IMG/VR virus record: IMGVR_UViG_3300043410_000080
Location: 1 to 23,089 of that record
Length of the DNA: 23,089 nt
Reading direction: 5' to 3' (one strand)
Source of the DNA: a virus
Shown here one piece after another: positions 4,593 through 16,976 of the stretch (within the stretch, counting starts at the first letter, position 1; each line of letters opens with the position of its first letter). The translations under genes were made by a program, and so were the position numbers. A model generated the notes under the pieces. That model saw nothing but the letters and a program-made list of their open reading frames with translations, did no database searches and had not been told where the DNA came from.

Positions 4593-5450
4593 CTAAACAG
4601 TATATGATCCAGATATTTTAAAAAAAGCTCCAGAAATTTGAGCATTTGTTGTATTTAATCCTGGTGTTAAAAAAAACATAGTTGTTGTGTTTCCACTTAC
4701 ATAAGATACAGTTGATAATGCAGCAGTTGTATAAGTAATACTTCCGTTGAAATCATTTGCACAGTTATATGGAAATCCAGTTATATTTGCACTATTTGTA
4801 TTAGAAGTTATTGGATAAGTAATCCCCATCTCAAAAGAAACTAATCTTCCAATTTTAGTATATCTTGCATAACTAACAGTAATTGATAATCCTGCTCCAC
4901 TAGAATCAACAGGTGTAAATGTACCTGTTTGATAATCATTTAACAAAGCACTAGAACCAAAATAAATACCATTAGATGTTCCTGAAAATCTTAAATTGCC
5001 TGCTCCTGGATCAGTAGTGTTTCCTATTGATACACCACCACTTCCAAATATACGCATTTTTTCTGCACCATTACATCCAAAACCTAATGCAGAATTTCCA
5101 TAAAGAAAAGGTAAATTACTTCCAGATGGATTTTGTAATCCTAAAGCTATAGTTGTTGTTACAGCATCGGTTAAAATAATTCCTGATTGATAACCAGCAG
5201 TTGCTGTGCTTGTAACAGATCTTATTTGACCACTTACATCTAATCTATACCCTGGTCCTGTTGTTCCTAACCCTAAATTTGTACCATCAAAATACAAATT
5301 AGAACTAGAATTAAATGCTCCTGTTCCATTGCCATACGGTATATAACCTACTGACAAAGAACTTAAACCAGTTCCTCCTTTAGCAAAAGACAATACCCCT
5401 GTACTAGAAGCACCTTCAGCAAGAAATGATAGATTACGAGGTATTGTCAT
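4593..5450 (-). CDS. Short tail fibre, 285 residues
   Basis: The start is taken as the ATG at 5450, forming a TAATG overlap with the upstream spike stop; the frame extends ten codons further up but has no better start. The N-terminus (MTIPRNLSFLAEGASS) and the FAKGGTGLSSL motif are typical of phage fibres. A repetitive beta region follows (YFDGTNLGLGTTGPGYRLDV), then a C-terminal domain opening with DYQTGTFTPVDSSG and containing YARYTKIGRLVSFEM, a module common at fibre ends. No S74 intramolecular chaperone peptidase is visible. The gene sits between two beta-helix spikes, so it is probably an adaptor or a separate receptor-binding fibre. Recognition is by motif; the receptor is unknown. Confidence 0.75.
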   Translation of the reverse strand: MTIPRNLSFLAEGASSTGVLSFAKGGTGLSSLSVGYIPYGNGTGAFNSSSNLYFDGTNLGLGTTGPGYRLDVSGQIRSVTSTATAGYQSGIILTDAVTTTIALGLQNPSGSNLPFLYGNSALGFGCNGAEKMRIFGSGGVSIGNTTDPGAGNLRFSGTSNGIYFGSSALLNDYQTGTFTPVDSSGAGLSITVSYARYTKIGRLVSFEMGITYPITSNTNSANITGFPYNCANDFNGSITYTTAALSTVSYVSGNTTTMFFLTPGLNTTNAQISGAFFKISGSYTV

Positions 5451-7828
5451 TAATATAACCTTATTCCACCAATTTTCCATCTTTGTGCAGATGCGTTCTG
5501 AATAAATCGAATACCAATCATATTTGCATTAGGATATGACATTGGTATTATCATTTGATTTTTTACCCAATTAGTTCCAGCAGTATTTCCATATACTAAA
5601 TTTCCTACATATCCACCTGATGTTGTTCCATCTGCTAATGTATAAGAACCTAAAAATCCTGATATTGAACTATCATAATAAAATACTGTAATATATCCAT
5701 TAAAAGAACCTGTGCTTGCAATTGTTTTTTGCCACCATTCAAAAATCATGTGTGTCGTAGGATAATTTCCATTTGGGCCTGTAGATGGAAACGTATATAA
5801 AATATTCTGTCCTGCACCTGAAATCATATCTATACATTGAGTAAAACTTAATTTTGTATCAGGTAATGTTGGTGATCCAGCCGTATCAGTTTGAATTAAT
5901 ATACTTGTTCCACCCACAGTTGTTTGATAATTTATTGATGGTGGAGCAGAACCAACTCCTGATGCTGGCAAAATTAATAAACCAGGTTGTAATGTTGTTG
6001 GTGAACTATCAAGTGTTACATATCCATAAGTTGAATCAATAGTTAAACAATTTTTAAATTTCACATCTGATTGTGTTGAATACCCATAATCTCCATGAAA
6101 TATTGTTGGAATATTTTGATTTTGAAATACACTATTTGTAAATTTAAATATCCATCCTGTTGCTCCATGTGTATTAATAAGTCCAATATCAGGAGCATAA
6201 GCTGATTTGTAAAAACTTAATGATGTTGCATCAAACACACCATAAGTATTATTAGCAACTTCAATAAATGCTGATGTTGCATTATTCCAATAATTATTTT
6301 GAAATCCATCAATTAAATAACGAGAGCCATTGTATCCAAAAAAGTTAGTGCAAGATGATTCAGTATTACATCCTGTTATCATAATGGTTGCAGCAGATTG
6401 CATCCATTTACCAGTAGCTAAATCGGTTGAGAATGTCCCTGATGTATTGGCAACTAAACAATAATAATTTTGATCTTGATATCCTGTTGGGCCTTGAACT
6501 GTATCACCAACAGCGTAAGAAGTAGATGTTGTCCATGTTCCTTTTGTTGGACTTATTCCATTTATAATAGTATATCCTAATGCTGTTTGAGCTTTAACAA
6601 ACTCACAATCTTCAAACATCATTTGACCTAAAAGATTTTGAACACCACAAGAATATAAATAACTAAATGTTCCTGAATGATAGCTGTCCCAATCATATTT
6701 TTGACAATCAATAGTCATGCCAATAACATGCATAAATCCATTGGGTTGATAACAATTAAAACATATTTCTACATCTCTAAACTCACCACCAATAATAGTA
6801 TTTTCACTTACTGCATTATTGATTGGCACAGACGATGTAAGAGTTCCTATCATTACACCAATAATTGCGTTATAAACACCTAATTGTCGCCAAGTGCATC
6901 TGCCAGCATAAGATACAGAAGAACTTGAATAAATTTGAATTGCAGCAGAATAATTTGTATTATAGTTTGCATTAATTCGTAAATTATTATAATTTGCTTG
7001 TAAAGCTGTAAATCGTGCAACAGCAACTGTTGATGTAGAAGCAATTCCTTTTAAATAGGCATTATTAAAATCTACTTGTTGTCCGTTGGTTGAAAAAGTT
7101 ATAGAAGTAACTGCGTATTGTCCTGGTGGAAATACAACATAGCTATTATTGTTTAATGCCGTTTGTATCGCAGTAGTATCATCCGTAACTCCATCACCCA
7201 CAGCACCAAAGTCTTTTACAGATACTGTCTGAGCAAGTTTGGCTTGTACGTTTGTTGCTACGCTATTTGTAAATGGAGGATAATAAGCAACAGTTACAGC
7301 ATTACTCATGTTCTGTGCAGTTGCTGGCAAAGATGCATAAAAATCCACAACATCACTAGCATTTAAACCACTTGCAAATGTAACAACAGAACTAGAAGTT
7401 TCTGTGTAATTTACATTGACTAATTGCTTTGAACCATTCACAAACACAACTAATGAATTAATGCCTGGTGTATAAGTAATAGTCGTTAAAGTAAATATTG
7501 TTTGACCTTGAGTTGCAGTTTGCACTTCTTCTTGCGATACAAAGTTACTTCCTGCTGGATTAATACCATAGGTATATTGATCCCAAATCAGATTGTTATT
7601 GACATCATAAACTTGTTGTCTATAAGCACCAGCTCCCCATGCAATACATTCGCCAGCAGCATCTAAAATAATAGGATTCGTATTAAGAATACTGAGGTTA
7701 ATATCTTGCCAAGTATTTTTAGGAGTTGTAGTGTAAGGAATGTAGTAATATACTTTACCACCTGCTAGTGGAGTACCATTCGCATCAAAATACTGTTGTT
7801 TTCCGTTTGGAATTAGTGATCCACTCAT
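5450..7828 (-). CDS. Tailspike with N-terminal particle-binding domain and beta-helix, 792 residues
   Basis: Residues 1-90 form a domain seen at the N-terminus of many podovirus spikes (P-N-G-K-Q-Q-Y-F-D-A-N-G-T-P-L-A-G-G-K-V, then NPIILDAAGE and GAGAYRQQVYD), which probably docks the spike on the tail. Residues 104-166 are a small beta domain (LVVFVNGSKQL) also present at the end of the 591-residue needle-position protein. Residues 201-240 carry the pectate-lyase-superfamily entry (VSVKDFGAVGDGVTDDTTAI), followed by a long beta-helix. Residues 429-478 look like a carbohydrate-binding insertion. The C-terminal ~100 residues look like a jelly-roll or trimerisation domain. The start has a GAGGAA site. 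This is likely the primary host-recognition spike; polysaccharide cleavage is inferred. Confidence 0.85.
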   Translation of the reverse strand: MSGSLIPNGKQQYFDANGTPLAGGKVYYYIPYTTTPKNTWQDINLSILNTNPIILDAAGECIAWGAGAYRQQVYDVNNNLIWDQYTYGINPAGSNFVSQEEVQTATQGQTIFTLTTITYTPGINSLVVFVNGSKQLVNVNYTETSSSVVTFASGLNASDVVDFYASLPATAQNMSNAVTVAYYPPFTNSVATNVQAKLAQTVSVKDFGAVGDGVTDDTTAIQTALNNNSYVVFPPGQYAVTSITFSTNGQQVDFNNAYLKGIASTSTVAVARFTALQANYNNLRINANYNTNYSAAIQIYSSSSVSYAGRCTWRQLGVYNAIIGVMIGTLTSSVPINNAVSENTIIGGEFRDVEICFNCYQPNGFMHVIGMTIDCQKYDWDSYHSGTFSYLYSCGVQNLLGQMMFEDCEFVKAQTALGYTIINGISPTKGTWTTSTSYAVGDTVQGPTGYQDQNYYCLVANTSGTFSTDLATGKWMQSAATIMITGCNTESSCTNFFGYNGSRYLIDGFQNNYWNNATSAFIEVANNTYGVFDATSLSFYKSAYAPDIGLINTHGATGWIFKFTNSVFQNQNIPTIFHGDYGYSTQSDVKFKNCLTIDSTYGYVTLDSSPTTLQPGLLILPASGVGSAPPSINYQTTVGGTSILIQTDTAGSPTLPDTKLSFTQCIDMISGAGQNILYTFPSTGPNGNYPTTHMIFEWWQKTIASTGSFNGYITVFYYDSSISGFLGSYTLADGTTSGGYVGNLVYGNTAGTNWVKNQMIIPMSYPNANMIGIRFIQNASAQRWKIGGIRLY

Positions 7829-11872: not shown

Positions 11873-12583
11873 CTATGATAATAAAGAGTAAATTTGAGCA
11901 CCAGTTTTGCCAGCACCCATCAAAGAATTAAACGCATTAGCAGTTGTATTTCCTGCTGCAACTTGTCCTGCTGCTAAAGCATTACCAGCTCCAACAGAAG
12001 TATTGTATGCAGCTTGTCCTGTTCCAGCAGCAGCGTTCTGACCAAGATTTAATAAGGCACTTAACTGTCCAGCGTTTGTATTGTATTGACCTAAAGCAGA
12101 ATTATAGTTTGTCTGATACATCCCCAAAGCGTTTTGTAATTGCTGATTGTATGTATTTTGTGCTAATCCTGTCGTATAGTCCGACAATGCTTTTGCTTGT
12201 GCTCCACTACCTAATAAACCTTGACCAGATAATGCATTGTTTGTGTTCTTTAATCCTTGTTGCAAGGTAAACTGATAGCCTGGTGTGTTTTGCAAATTAG
12301 AAGCATCAAATGTAAATGGATTAAATTGAAATCCTTTACCTGATACACCTGATAAGTTTCCAGAAGTATCAAAGCTAGGATTGTATCCAAGTGAAGTCAA
12401 TAATTGAGGCAATACAGCAGTTCCAATTGCTGAATAAGGAGCAAGTTTGCCTTGAAGCATTTGATATGCTTGTAATTGTGCATTTGCTTGTGTTTGTGCA
12501 GCATCTGTCGCAGCTTGAGCTTGTTGATTTGCTCCAGTTATGCCACCGAATATCTGACCTAAAGCGTTTCCTATAAAACTCAT
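11873..12583 (-). CDS. DNA-transfer / ejection protein, gp7-like
   Basis: A 236-residue protein with an Ala/Gln/Asn/Gly-rich composition. It begins with a hydrophobic glycine-rich segment (SFIGNALGQIFGGITGA), contains the block NTPGYQFTLQQGLKN...GLLGSGAQAKAL typical of P22 gp7-like and other DNA-transfer proteins, and ends with a small-residue-rich helical tail. P22 gp7 is about 229 residues at the same place. Such proteins are packed in the capsid and released first into the host envelope to form the ejection channel. The start has a GGGGAG site and overlaps the upstream stop by four bases (ATGA). Confidence 0.75.
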   Translation of the reverse strand: MSFIGNALGQIFGGITGANQQAQAATDAAQTQANAQLQAYQMLQGKLAPYSAIGTAVLPQLLTSLGYNPSFDTSGNLSGVSGKGFQFNPFTFDASNLQNTPGYQFTLQQGLKNTNNALSGQGLLGSGAQAKALSDYTTGLAQNTYNQQLQNALGMYQTNYNSALGQYNTNAGQLSALLNLGQNAAAGTGQAAYNTSVGAGNALAAGQVAAGNTTANAFNSLMGAGKTGAQIYSLLS

Positions 12584-12978
12584 AATTTGCTCCCCATCAA
12601 TACCATTGAATGAAATTTGCCATCTCTTACATAGGCATTGGCAATTCTGCCTTCTTCAATCAAACCTAGACGCTTACCCAATTTTAATGCACTTTTGTTC
12701 CAATCACCAATAGGTGCAAGAAATTTTTTTGTGCCTTGTTTTTTCATCTTTTCCATACATTCTTCCACAAATTCCTTAGTATGTTTACACTTCAACATAC
12801 AAACATGAAGTTCTTTCATGGTTGGTGTTACTGTTCTAAACATTACAAACCCATGTTCATTGACAAAATACTCATCTGATTCACAATAACCATATTGCTC
12901 TTTACTTACTCCATCAATCCTGACCGAATCCCAAACTCGATCATTATGCATAATTGAGGTAATAAACTCCTTAGACAT
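12580..12978 (-). CDS. GNAT-fold-like protein at the gp14 position
   Basis: The ATG at 12978 gives 132 residues and an 8-base overlap with the upstream gene. A longer GTG-started version from 13023 would overlap by 53 bases and is less likely. The C-terminal half reads like a GNAT acetyltransferase core: a helix (about 66-82), the strand KFLAPI (85-90), then GDWNKSALKLGKRLGLIEEG (91-110), which resembles the N-x-S-A-x-x-L-x-x-K-x-G-F motif, and a final strand pair. P22 has its head-assembly protein gp14 (DUF2824, about 150 residues) at this position. The role could be a small virion-assembly factor that keeps a GNAT-like fold. No acetyl-CoA-binding pyrophosphate loop (Q/R-x-x-G-x-G/A) is visible, so catalysis is doubtful. 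Confidence 0.65.
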   Translation of the reverse strand: MSKEFITSIMHNDRVWDSVRIDGVSKEQYGYCESDEYFVNEHGFVMFRTVTPTMKELHVCMLKCKHTKEFVEECMEKMKKQGTKKFLAPIGDWNKSALKLGKRLGLIEEGRIANAYVRDGKFHSMVLMGSKL

Positions 12979-14746
12979 TGTATGCAATCGTTTCCACAAT
13001 ATCGCCAGCATTACATCCGACACTTAGAACCACAGAAGTTCCATTTGTAGCCGTATAATCCGTTCCATTCAATAAAACACCATTGACAAAGACTTGAACG
13101 TAACCTACGTTATAAGTCGCACTAAATGTCGTTTGACTAGCAGTCGCTGTAAATGATGTTCTGACATATGGAGGTTTCCAAGTTGGCACTCCACTTGCCA
13201 CAGTTAATGTATAACCTGTTGTTCCTACAGCTAATTTTGATAGAGTATTTGTTGCATTTGCATACAAAATATCGCCAGTTGTGTAAGAAGTCTGAGCAGT
13301 TCCACCATTAATCGCAGGCAAAGCCGTTCCAGAATAAGTAATCGCTAAAGTTCCACTTGTCGTAATTGGACTGCCTGAAATACTTAGAAAACTCGGTACA
13401 GTCGCAGCTACAGAAGTTACTGTTCCACCTGTTCCAGTCGCATTAATGGTTATTGCAGCCGAGCCGTTATAAGTTGTTCCTGTGCTAAAACTGACACCAG
13501 TTCCAGCAGTTAAACTAAATAAATTACTACCTAAAGCAACACCTGAAATGGTGCTATTGGTTAATTGACTGTTTCCAATGCCTGATAATGTGCCACCAAG
13601 CGTTAAAGAGCCACTAGAAGTAACTGTTCCTGTTAAGGTAATACCATTGACGCTTCCTGTTCCTGAAACGCTTGTAACGCTTCCTTTATTATTAAATGTG
13701 TTCCAGTCGGTGCTAGACAAGTATCCATTACTTGATGCACTAGCTTGCGAAATGCTAACTGTCGGTGTATATCCTGACGTTACAGAAATAGGAGATGTTC
13801 CTGACACAGACGTTACATAGTTTAATGATGGAATATCGGCAGAAACTAAAGCTCTAAATGTAGGAGTTGCAGCACTACCTGTTGATGGCCCAGCAAACAC
13901 AGTATTTGCCGTTTGTGTAGTCAAAGTTCCTGTTAAAGTTCCACTTGTTGTAACTGGTGAACCTGATACAGAAAATATAGATGGTAAAGATAATGCTACG
14001 CTAGTTACAGATCCACTACCTTTATTGTTAAACGTATTCCAATCTGTAGAGCTTAAATAGCCATTTGTTGTTGCAGAAGATTGCGTAATGCTAATATTCG
14101 GAGTTGTGCCACCACTTGAAGATATTGGTGCTGTTCCTGTAACCGATGTAATTGTTCCACCAGAACCAGTTGCACTTAATGTGCCACCAACAAATGAAAC
14201 TCCTAATCCAATCGTTACATTAGAGAATCCACCAGCACCATTACCATAAAGTATGCTTGTGCCACTTGTAGCAGGTGCGTAATCCGTTCCTGATACGGCA
14301 GCAGATATGGCAGTTCCATTTCCTTTTAAAAGTCCTGTAATCGTTGTTTTCATCGTTACAGTTGCATTGCTTGTGCCATTGACTACAGTACCAGCAAAAC
14401 CATTTGCAGAGCTTATCAAGACTGGTAAAGAATAATCTACACCTGAAGTTGCAGCAGACAACGCTGTTCCATCGCCTTTTACAAGTCCTGTTACCGTTGT
14501 CGATAAAGTAACGTCAGCATTGGTCGGTGTATAAACAATATTGCCTGCAAATCCGTTTGCCGACAGGATATTAACTGTTTGTAGATATTGTTGCTGAATC
14601 TGCGTTAGATTTAATGGAGGTGTTTGATCTCCACCTGTTCGTTGGTACAATTGCACCAAAAACATTAGCCAGGGAACAGTTAAATTTCCATTGGGATCAG
14701 TAATTGGAATATTAAGAACAGGAAGATTAGATGCAAGATTAGCCAT
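12971..14746 (-). CDS. Repetitive tail fibre / needle at the gp26 position, 591 residues
   Basis: The N-terminal ~60 residues (including ITDPNGNLTVPWLMFLVQLY) are a short docking-like segment found in other podovirus fibres. The rest is a Gly/Ser/Thr-rich repetitive beta protein: two 44-residue repeats (62-105 and 113-156), two copies of a ~50-residue unit around STDWNTFNNKG (200-250 and 312-360), two PSI/FxSxSGSPxTTSGTL units (253-272 and 450-467), and a final domain (530-591; VQVFVNGVLLNG) shared with the 792-residue spike. In P22 this position holds the 233-residue coiled-coil needle gp26 that plugs the portal. No coiled coil is seen here, so this may be a fibrous plug or a central fibre. 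It starts in a TAATG overlap with the gp10-like gene. Confidence 0.7.
   Translation of the reverse strand: MANLASNLPVLNIPITDPNGNLTVPWLMFLVQLYQRTGGDQTPPLNLTQIQQQYLQTVNILSANGFAGNIVYTPTNADVTLSTTVTGLVKGDGTALSAATSGVDYSLPVLISSANGFAGTVVNGTSNATVTMKTTITGLLKGNGTAISAAVSGTDYAPATSGTSILYGNGAGGFSNVTIGLGVSFVGGTLSATGSGGTITSVTGTAPISSSGGTTPNISITQSSATTNGYLSSTDWNTFNNKGSGSVTSVALSLPSIFSVSGSPVTTSGTLTGTLTTQTANTVFAGPSTGSAATPTFRALVSADIPSLNYVTSVSGTSPISVTSGYTPTVSISQASASSNGYLSSTDWNTFNNKGSVTSVSGTGSVNGITLTGTVTSSGSLTLGGTLSGIGNSQLTNSTISGVALGSNLFSLTAGTGVSFSTGTTYNGSAAITINATGTGGTVTSVAATVPSFLSISGSPITTSGTLAITYSGTALPAINGGTAQTSYTTGDILYANATNTLSKLAVGTTGYTLTVASGVPTWKPPYVRTSFTATASQTTFSATYNVGYVQVFVNGVLLNGTDYTATNGTSVVLSVGCNAGDIVETIAYNV
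13667..14149 (-). repeat. Two diverged ~50-codon repeats (STDWNTFNNKG unit)
   Basis: Copies lie at 13997-14149 and 13667-13813 inside the 591-residue fibre gene. Both encode a TSVxGTxPIS...TTPxxSIxQ unit followed by NGYLSSTDWNTFNNKGS. The 16-residue core is identical in protein, yet many codons differ at the third position, so the duplication is old and the protein is under constraint. This unit is widespread in phage fibres. Confidence 0.8.
14279..14563 (-). repeat. Two tandem 44-codon repeats (SANGFAG...TTxTGLxKGxGTAxSAA)
   Basis: Copies lie at 14432-14563 and 14279-14410, a 51-codon period. Each starts SANGFAG and ends with TGLL/VKGN/DGTAI/LSAAxSGxDY. They build part of the beta shaft of the 591-residue fibre. 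Amino-acid identity is moderate and DNA identity is low. Confidence 0.8.
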
Positions 14747-16167
14747 TATTCGTGATTAGGTAATGCATCCACAAAAGCTCCTGACAATGCTGTTTTAGTC
14801 GGAGAACTCCAAAACAGTTCAAATACTCGATCTCTTGCCATTCCTAAACGATTCCATTGCATACTTGTTAGATATTCACCTTCTTTACCTAAACTTTGCA
14901 TGACTGGATTGCTGTATGTTTTGCCTCTGTCATCTGACCATTGCAAACTGACATCAACAGATTGATTATTACTGCCGTTCCCTGATTCCATTTCAGAAAT
15001 AAAACTACGATAACGCACACGATTTGAATTATCATCTTCCATGTGAAAGAAACTACGAATTCGTGTGATAGGTTGTCCATTATCGGTGTAATTGTCTTGG
15101 TCAATTGTATATAAATTACCATTTTCCCAATCACCAACAACTAATTTTTTGTAGGCAAACGCAAAGCAATTTGAACGATGACGATTTAAATTTCCATCAT
15201 TATCTACCCAATTCCATTCGTTCCATTGATTGTTAGATAAGTCATATACCCATGTCTTATTAGCCGTTGGGAATGTAACTACATAAAAGAAATGTCCGTT
15301 TAATTCATAGGTATAACCAATGGCATCGGACAATGTTGAATAACTTTGCAACTCATTATTAATTGCAAATGTTGAAATTTGTTGTGCAGAAAAATTAGCA
15401 GTCTTACAAATAAATGCTTGACCTTGTGGAGATTGTGCTACCCAATACAATTCACCATCCATTTGTGCTATGGAATTAGTTGCTGCACATCCGTATTGAA
15501 TAAACGAACCTGGCAATCTTCCAAATGGAAATGTCGTATTGCCTTGATTAAACCATACTTCCGTTGTAATTTGACCAAATAAGTATATATATCGTCTTGT
15601 AATACCAATACCGACTAATGAATCTGCAAATCCTGTAGTCGATGCATAATCAATCGGATCAAATATCGTTGTATTTGGCAACGAAATATACCATTCTCGT
15701 GTGCCAATATAGTTCAATACAAAGTATCCATCAACATAATTAACTTGATTTCCACCATAAAAACCAGCTTGATTAATCTTGGCAAAGGCATTAGTCGCTA
15801 AATGAATAGTCCATCCATTGTTTAACGTGCCATCTACTAAAATTAAATCAACGGTATTATCTACCATTGAAACTGGCCCAGCGTAGGATGTAATTGTTCC
15901 TATAACGGTACAAACAAATGAACTGCTAATGGCATAAACAATATTGCCACACACACCATATAGTTGATTATTGCTTGCAGAATATAATCCTCTCCACGAA
16001 ATAGCAGGCACGTTACTTTTTAAAGTTAAGCCTGGTGTTGGATAGTGCGTAAATGGAAATACGCTACCTTGTGGATTAGCCTCTAAATAAAGATTAACAC
16101 ATCGTTGTGCAGATGCAATAACACTTCTTGCTTGATAAGCACCAATAGTTAGAGCTGATTTTGCCAT
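14746..16167 (-). CDS. Packaged-DNA stabilisation (head-closure) protein, gp10-like
   Basis: A 473-residue protein, almost exactly the length of P22 gp10 (472), in the same place between gp4-like and needle-position genes. The N-terminus (SVIASAQRCVNLYLEANPQG) and the beta-propeller-like series of strands (GRLPGSFIQYGCAATNS; ELYWVAQSPQGQAF; KTWVYDLSNNQWNEW) are typical of the Phage_stabilise family. Six copies would form the head-closure ring below the portal and gp4, holding packaged DNA until the needle or fibre plugs the tube. It starts in a TAATG overlap with the gp4-like gene and ends in another with the fibre gene. Confidence 0.85.
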   Translation of the reverse strand: MAKSALTIGAYQARSVIASAQRCVNLYLEANPQGSVFPFTHYPTPGLTLKSNVPAISWRGLYSASNNQLYGVCGNIVYAISSSFVCTVIGTITSYAGPVSMVDNTVDLILVDGTLNNGWTIHLATNAFAKINQAGFYGGNQVNYVDGYFVLNYIGTREWYISLPNTTIFDPIDYASTTGFADSLVGIGITRRYIYLFGQITTEVWFNQGNTTFPFGRLPGSFIQYGCAATNSIAQMDGELYWVAQSPQGQAFICKTANFSAQQISTFAINNELQSYSTLSDAIGYTYELNGHFFYVVTFPTANKTWVYDLSNNQWNEWNWVDNDGNLNRHRSNCFAFAYKKLVVGDWENGNLYTIDQDNYTDNGQPITRIRSFFHMEDDNSNRVRYRSFISEMESGNGSNNQSVDVSLQWSDDRGKTYSNPVMQSLGKEGEYLTSMQWNRLGMARDRVFELFWSSPTKTALSGAFVDALPNHE

Positions 16168-16910
16168 TATCCAGCACTTCCAACGTAGAAATCTCCATAG
16201 ATATTGTATGCTCCAGACTTGCCACGCAAAGCTATAGGCATATGCAACAATGGAATTTGTGAATTGACTTCTTCGATAGCTCGCATACTTGCTTCAGCAT
16301 ACTTTGTAATCTTTGGATTCTCTGGCATACCATAAATAGTCAATATTCTATCTGCTAGATTCCATTGCAATGCATCCAAGTATTCAGGAGGTAAAATGAT
16401 TTGATCACTTAAATTTTGAAATGCTTGCAGTTGTACCATAATGGTAACGAAAATTTGATACTGATTATTCGGAACTGGCCATACATAAATGTTTCCAATT
16501 GGGAATGTTGTATCGTAATAAATGTATTGAGGAAATGCATTAAGATTTTTAATCGAAATACGATCATAGTCTTCTTGTGCTCTCAATACTTGTAATGGAT
16601 AATCCACAGGTAAAACAGAACCACCTTGCATACGAATGTAAGCAGATTCTATTTTTACAGGTCGTGTAATATTAAATTGTTGTCCAGTACCAATTGTGTA
16701 CGATACTGCACCAGTCGCTTGTAAGCCTATTGTTTCTAAGTTATACACCATGTAACGTCTGCGTTGCCATTGAGCAAGCATCATGTTTAGCATATTAAAA
16801 CAATCATTGATATCTTCAGATAATGCAGTCTGTCCAACACCTATCACGTTTGCCGTTTTAAGTGCTAAAGTAATAATATCTCTAGGAGTTGTCGGCAATG
16901 GTTGGCTCAT
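16167..16910 (-). CDS. Tail accessory factor, P22 gp4-like
   Basis: The start is set at the ATG at 16910 behind a good AAGGA site, giving 247 residues; an 18-codon upstream extension would run through the hairpin at 16932-16955 and has no ribosome site. The protein is mostly helical at the N-terminus (TPRDIITLALKTANVIG; INDCFNMLNMMLAQWQRRR), has a central beta region ending in IYVWPVPNNQYQIFVTI, and the motif IILPPEYLDALQWNLADRI, all typical of P22_Tail-4 proteins, which assemble as a 12-mer on the portal. It is longer than P22 gp4 (166 residues) because of the central insert. It ends in a TAATG overlap with the gp10-like gene. Confidence 0.8.
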   Translation of the reverse strand: MSQPLPTTPRDIITLALKTANVIGVGQTALSEDINDCFNMLNMMLAQWQRRRYMVYNLETIGLQATGAVSYTIGTGQQFNITRPVKIESAYIRMQGGSVLPVDYPLQVLRAQEDYDRISIKNLNAFPQYIYYDTTFPIGNIYVWPVPNNQYQIFVTIMVQLQAFQNLSDQIILPPEYLDALQWNLADRILTIYGMPENPKITKYAEASMRAIEEVNSQIPLLHMPIALRGKSGAYNIYGDFYVGSAG

Positions 16911-16931
16911 ATCTATCCTTAATCTAAAGAA

Positions 16932-16955
16932 TGGACTCCCAATTAAGAGAGTCCA
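16932..16955 (-). terminator. Hairpin terminator or attenuator after the coat gene
   Basis: On the minus strand the RNA folds as TGGACTCTC, a TTAATT loop, then GGGAGTCCA (nine pairs including one G-U), followed by TTCTTTAGATT. It lies 22 bases after the coat stop and before the gp4-like ribosome site. The weak U tract suggests partial termination, letting some transcripts continue to the tail genes while enriching coat mRNA. On the plus strand the downstream bases are not T-rich. Confidence 0.6.
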
Positions 16956-16976
16956 CCAATACATCTACAACGCAAA

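Follow-up and report, generated by a model that had tools for sequence, protein, structure and literature searches.

A gp10-linked N-terminal module and an exchangeable, probably fibrous distal part at the needle position of a P22-type phage

The needle of phages P22 and Sf6 is a coiled coil that acts as both plug and probe, and the locus studied here raises the question of what a long repetitive protein is doing at the same position. The window, i.e., the whole stretch of 23,089 bases that was analysed (virus record IMGVR_UViG_3300043410_000080, which may be a fragment), encodes at this point a protein of 591 residues, P0001 (12971..14746, minus strand, ATG start). The ORF had been listed in a first-pass annotation that gave no strand; it is real, lies on the minus strand and has base 14746 in common with gp10, and its 3' end runs into the following ORF. 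Taken as a whole, P0001 has no sequence match in Pfam, PHROG, NCBIfam or the PDB.

The genes around P0001 are those of a P22-type head and tail cluster. Upstream lie a gp4-like tail adaptor (16167..16964, minus; phrog_637 with an E-value of 9.8e-8 over residues 25-69, and phrog_12985, of unknown function, with 3.1e-28) and a homologue of the P22 stabilisation or nozzle protein gp10 (14746..16167, minus; PF11134, E 2.4e-11; phrog_578, E 1.2e-107), which is the presumed docking partner of P0001. On the 3' side follow an ORF of at most 147 residues at the gp14 position and then a P22 gp7-like ejection protein (11873..12583, minus; phrog_598, E 4.1e-16). Family matches support TerL, portal, scaffold, coat, gp10 and gp7, as well as gp4 weakly; for gp14, gp20 and gp16 no family match was convincing, and these were assigned by position and size. 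With this reservation for the three genes, P0001 sits where gp26 is found, directly after gp10 and before the gp14, gp7, gp20 and gp16 positions, and the earlier claim that gene order matches P22 exactly seems reasonable, since order and positions are those of HK620 and Sf6.

The description of P0001 as a Gly/Ser/Thr-rich repeat protein is also borne out. These three residues make up 44.8% of the protein compared with a mean of 23.8%, and charged residues (DEKR) 3.9% compared with 18.1%; in a comparison set of 1,997 mechanical ORFs of at least 200 residues, taken from the loci collected and thus including relatives, 2.4% are as rich in the former and 2.4% as poor in the latter. Three pairs of 30-residue segments are identical at 24, 21 and 20 positions, against a maximum of 13 of 30 over 30 shuffles. 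The strongest pair joins residues 215-244 to 327-356, and the second joins residues 76-105 to 127-156, which fall in two successive repeats of the NGFAG...DY type delimited by repeat comparison (residues 60-107, 14426..14569, and residues 111-158, 14273..14416, both minus).

The absence of a coiled coil, which had likewise been proposed, agrees with a home-made and coarse proxy that gave 1.13 for P0001 and 1.77-2.05 for nine P22-type gp26 proteins (P22, HK620, Sf6, APSE-2, phiSG1, sortkaff, IME_EC2, Aeromonas 4_4512 and Proteus vB_BPM-V3). The cut-off of 1.90 used with this proxy recovers five of these nine needles; 60 shuffles of P22 gp26 had a mean of 1.75 and a maximum of 1.96, and one of 225 shuffled module proteins (see below) reached 1.90. 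The coiled-coil shaft that characterises gp26 was thus not found in P0001. An AlphaFold monomer (22 sequences) had a mean pLDDT of 43.8 with a low-confidence helix at residues 25-36, so the model does not establish the fold, and a poor model is to be expected when a trimeric fibre is modelled as a monomer. The distal part of about 545 residues is probably a beta-rich fibre, as suggested by its composition and its relatives, and would presumably be trimeric.

At the C-terminus, residues 527-591 (12974..13168, minus) form a domain common to tail-fibre proteins of Roseobacter, Pelagibacter and cyanobacterial phages. It matches 64 phage records, and many of the best 40 of these 64 are annotated as tail fibre. 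The PDB gave weak matches alone (K1 capsule depolymerase, E 0.18; a ribosomal protein, E 1.6), which we do not take as assignments. By eye, residues of about 105-165 of the window's spike at 5450-7828, which precede its pectate-lyase part, resemble this domain.

At the other end of P0001 lies a conserved segment. In most relatives the ORF after gp10 starts similarly, with prolines, D and G followed by an aromatic stretch and often RTGG at the end, corresponding to P0001 residues 1 to about 45. This N-terminal module, a putative gp10-docking or plug segment, is mapped by profile conservation to residues 1-50 (14597..14746, minus), with a core at about residues 7-38. A profile HMM seeded with residues 1-52 of P0001, which is therefore a member of the family by construction, was iterated over 10,680 ORFs from both strands of 322 records and settled on 247 ORFs, or 211 distinct proteins. 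For the gp10 searches an alignment of 14 sequences proved too diverse as a query and two narrower alignments were used. A complete gp10 with an ORF behind it is present in 277 loci, and in 242 of these the module stands in the ORF directly after gp10.

Five module matches fall elsewhere. One comes from the window itself, which was present twice in the set, and three (L279, L296 and L308) in fact adjoin gp10 and lie outside the search frame because an ORF intervenes, gp10 is broken or the start is early. The real exception is L109, where a weak match belongs to a 668-residue gene about 5.8 kb upstream of gp10. This module-like fibre gene (4909-6915) lies between coat and gp4 rather than after gp10, and in the same record an ORF that looks by eye like a GIY-YIG protein (12047-12715) stands between gp4 and gp10. 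In L279, a small ORF with the look, again by eye, of an HNH-type homing endonuclease (1252-1755) splits gp10 from the module gene. The 35 loci with no module match in the next ORF include the nine P22-type phages, PBR31, Pam1, ctTUS972 and the above L279, L296 and L308; several others appear by eye to hold weak versions of the module. Among twelve named records that are not P22-type, nine have it (PAE2, DSL-LC05, Rhodoferax phage P26218, phiAX1, ctfPj964, VvAW1, 1.211.A, Thalassomonas phage BA3 and ctNMl277).

Since the loci had been collected with gp10 or P0001, a separate search was made with the module alone, using as a query four members of one module branch. In 79 of 80 loci, the best 80 of at least 597 relatives and ten of them already in the set, gp10 ends within −10 to +18 bases of the match; the 80th lies too near a contig edge to judge. 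For 24 members of the family, Pfam gave no match to the module and PHROG no convincing one (two stray matches, E 0.034 and 0.098). In the PDB the module profile drew nothing but two MORN-repeat chains at E 0.12, which are not convincing. A tblastn search of the phage collection with the N-terminal 56 residues yielded only PAE2 (E 0.01) and phiAX1 (E 0.4), which means that the module is detectable only with profiles. No description of such a module appears in the titles or abstract openings among the literature matches listed, a search with most subscription journals outside its scope. What appears to be new is this anchor module, for which no description was found, together with its strict tie to gp10, and it offers an annotation marker for the tail-tip gene in podoviruses whose gp26-position gene reads "hypothetical protein" or "tail fiber".

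To compare the descent of the two parts of the protein, 124 of 214 loci with complete genes were kept below 90% gp10 identity, and 123 of these have at least 30 distal residues, giving 7,503 pairs. Module identity follows gp10 identity with a rank correlation of 0.66, compared with 0.24 for the whole distal part, and distal blocks of 32 residues, matched in length to the module, gave 0.17, 0.11 and 0.07. None of 500 permutations reached the observed value in either case, and thus the distal part is not wholly independent of gp10 either. At 70-80% gp10 identity (1,192 pairs), modules are 61% identical on average, and for 74% of the pairs BLAST finds no distal match at an E-value of 1e-3.

The same behavior is seen at closer range. 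Ten close relatives have modules 76-88% identical to that of P0001, in long and short proteins alike; five of the proteins have 531-704 residues and a related shaft, and five have 234-265 residues with most of the shaft missing. Within the five long relatives, blocks of 48-84 residues come or go as units, and three such cassettes can be placed in P0001, all on the minus strand: residues 199-246 (14009..14152), absent from relative L023; residues 244-305 (13832..14017), absent from L001; and residues 357-440 (13427..13678), absent from L012. On this comparison the distal part appears to be swapped between viruses, with whole cassettes changing even in near relatives. A conserved N-terminal anchor and an independently exchanged distal part are the marks of a modular tail fibre, and fixed N-termini with replaceable C-termini are described for podovirus tail fibres in PMC10386132. 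P0001 resembles such fibres in its conserved anchor, its mosaic distal part and the C-terminal domain it has in common with Pelagibacter, Roseobacter and cyanophage tail fibres, and differs from them in occupying the needle locus behind gp10 and in an anchor with no Pfam or convincing PHROG match. Taken alone, a repetitive fibre in the needle's place is ordinary tail mosaicism.

The range of what the module carries is wide. There are 225 complete module proteins (190 distinct), in classes that overlap and with counts inflated by near-identical contigs. The coiled-coil proxy is passed by 49 of them (44 distinct), and 62 (49 distinct) are fibre-like, with at least 35% Gly/Ser/Thr and a proxy value below the cut-off. 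Proteins of at most 140 residues number 40 (27 distinct), the shortest having 60 residues, and those of at least 500 residues number 54 (47 distinct). In several loci (L038-L049) a module protein of 130 residues immediately precedes a separate ORF of about 800-1,300 residues, the length of which varies between close relatives.

Two groups illustrate the point. Proteins of the Vibrio/Thalassomonas type (BA3, Vibrio phage 1.211.A and loci such as L244-L252) have the module and gene position of P0001 but a different distal part, predicted to pass from a long helix through a mostly irregular stretch to a helix at the C-terminus. The AlphaFold monomer of L252, aligned with 14 relatives, places these helices at residues 25-136 and 187-227, with a mean pLDDT of 71.5, a pTM of 0.31 and a block pLDDT above 90 for residues 61-120. 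In gp26 the order of parts is N-terminus, coiled coil, beta part and helical tip, and the modelled parts of the L252 type would follow this order in outline. Vibrio phage VvAW1 gp06, a "tail collar fiber protein", and L053 likewise have P0001's module at P0001's position, with distal ends unlike that of P0001 that match phrog_1800 (tail collar fiber) and phrog_7121 (tail fiber protein), respectively. Judging from its motif, we take the C-terminal end of L053 to resemble an S74-type chaperone domain.

Is the module then a form of the gp26 N-terminus? Comparison with the nine gp26-type proteins gave no homology (best E 0.065 with hmmsearch --max in a database of nine; hhalign probability of at most 1.4%), and the C-termini of the coiled-coil relatives compared with five gp26 C-termini reached 1.2%, with controls at 0.1-0.4% and nothing significant. 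A canonical needle elsewhere, which would have spoken against the first-pass annotation, did not turn up: the needle profiles phrog_1219 and phrog_1030 match neither the 23-kb window nor any of eight related records (21.6-35.4 kb, possibly fragments), and the positive controls HK620 and Sf6 score with both. The former is not a narrow profile, as it also matches in six of 14 control genomes. With no significant similarity to gp26, P0001 is not placed in the gp26 family, though it may work like gp26. Like the P22 needle (phrog_1219) and the knobbed needle of Sf6 (phrog_1030), it comes after gp10 and before the gp14 and gp7 positions, and like them it has a conserved N-terminal and an exchanged C-terminal part, the P22 and Sf6 needles having a common N-terminal virion-binding domain and completely different C-termini according to PMC3741392. 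It differs in its length (591 residues vs. 233 in P22 and HK620 or 282 in Sf6), its Gly/Ser/Thr-rich repeats and the lack of a coiled-coil signal. One needle label deserves a check, since the "needle protein" of Pseudanabaena phage Pam1 (ON014753.1, L151; 8866-9750) matches phrog_598 at E 3.8e-23, the DNA ejection family to which the window's gp7 belongs.

We consider it probable that P0001 is the gp26-position tail-tip component of a P22-type short-tailed phage and is made of two independent halves, a gp10-docking plug and an exchangeable fibre. This reading builds on what is directly established, namely the sequence and the place of the gene, the tight link in position between anchor and gp10, their parallel descent, and a distal part that varies independently. 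By analogy, docking or plugging would fall to the module and probing to the distal part. Residues 1-45 would form an anchor that docks at, or inside, the distal opening of the gp10 ring and probably closes it, with the remaining residues as a central fibre of exchangeable cassettes that carries the tail-fibre C-terminal domain at its tip. On adsorption, for which spikes are encoded separately, contact of the fibre with the cell surface would release the anchor and open the channel for the ejection proteins. Linkage without contact can also yield parallel descent with gp10, but such descent is far weaker in the gene's own distal part. Plugs distinct from a needle are known: DEV and N4 have a separate tail plug held by receptor-binding proteins, as described in PMC12892993.

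P0001 could instead be a side fibre or tailspike adaptor attached through the module to the outside of gp10, with no such central needle or plug, which we regard as unlikely, if the most serious of the alternatives. A distal composition and C-terminal domain typical of tail fibres would suit that role, as would the annotation of the same-position protein in Xanthomonas phage PBR31 (with no module match above threshold) as "tail fiber protein, tail spike adaptor protein" and the relatives in which a 130-residue module protein precedes a large separate ORF. However, coiled-coil relatives with a gp26-like order of parts bear the same module at the same place, a single gene adjoining gp10 is the arrangement of gp26, and the window encodes two pectate-lyase-type spikes apart from P0001 (5450-7828 and 2872-4584), one with about 200 residues before the lyase domain that could serve as its anchor.

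The similarities of locus and of N-terminal pattern, the latter vague and seen by eye, together with the domain organisation of the P22 and Sf6 needles noted above from PMC3741392, could also mean that P0001 is a true but diverged gp26, with a beta fibre replacing the coiled coil and the module as a diverged gp26 N-terminus. Given that profile and profile-profile tests were insignificant both for the N-termini and for the coiled-coil relatives against gp26, this seems improbable. That a separate needle is encoded beyond the window and P0001 is an adhesin only is very improbable indeed: the window may be a fragment, but all of the expected head and tail positions are filled within it, the eight related records of up to 35.4 kb have no gp26 profile match, and the module coiled coils of other phages occupy exactly the slot of P0001.

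The two-part reading of P0001, as plug and fibre, bears on how the locus was first interpreted. The proposal of a fibre in place of the needle holds insofar as a repetitive protein with no coiled-coil signal stands at the gp26 locus; the protein is more than a fibre substituted for a needle, as the N-terminal module, which had been missed, is tied to gp10 and is also present on coiled-coil, needle-like proteins of related phages. The two options then offered, that the fibre does the needle's job or that the needle is absent and this is a central adhesin, are not mutually exclusive, because docking and plugging may plausibly reside in the conserved N-terminus and reach and adhesion in the replaceable rest.

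More tentatively, and with the balance slightly against it, the module of about 35 residues may be a widespread, undescribed plug or dock of non-enteric P22-type podoviruses, distinct in sequence from gp26, to which a needle is optional. If so, one plug would carry coiled-coil needles, beta fibres, collar-type fibres or nothing, which would make the puncturing needle an optional accessory and would mean that plugging requires no needle. Plugging and puncturing as separate functions, and channel opening with no rigid needle, are testable now.

Some further features of the window may be recorded. A host search for relatives of gp10 in genome contigs returned none. The ORF at the gp14 position (12580-12978, minus) has weak GNAT-type acetyltransferase matches below the cut-offs (NCBIfam, E 0.011-0.1); acetyltransferase-annotated genes lie nearby in PBR31 and Pam1, and gp14 of HK620 is a DUF2824 protein. 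A DUF7936 protein of unknown function (2456-2872, minus; E 4.2e-20) stands between a pectate-lyase-type spike and the lysis genes, which span 90-1274 on the minus strand and comprise a GH19-type endolysin (90-680) and a GTA_holin_3TM protein (876-1274).
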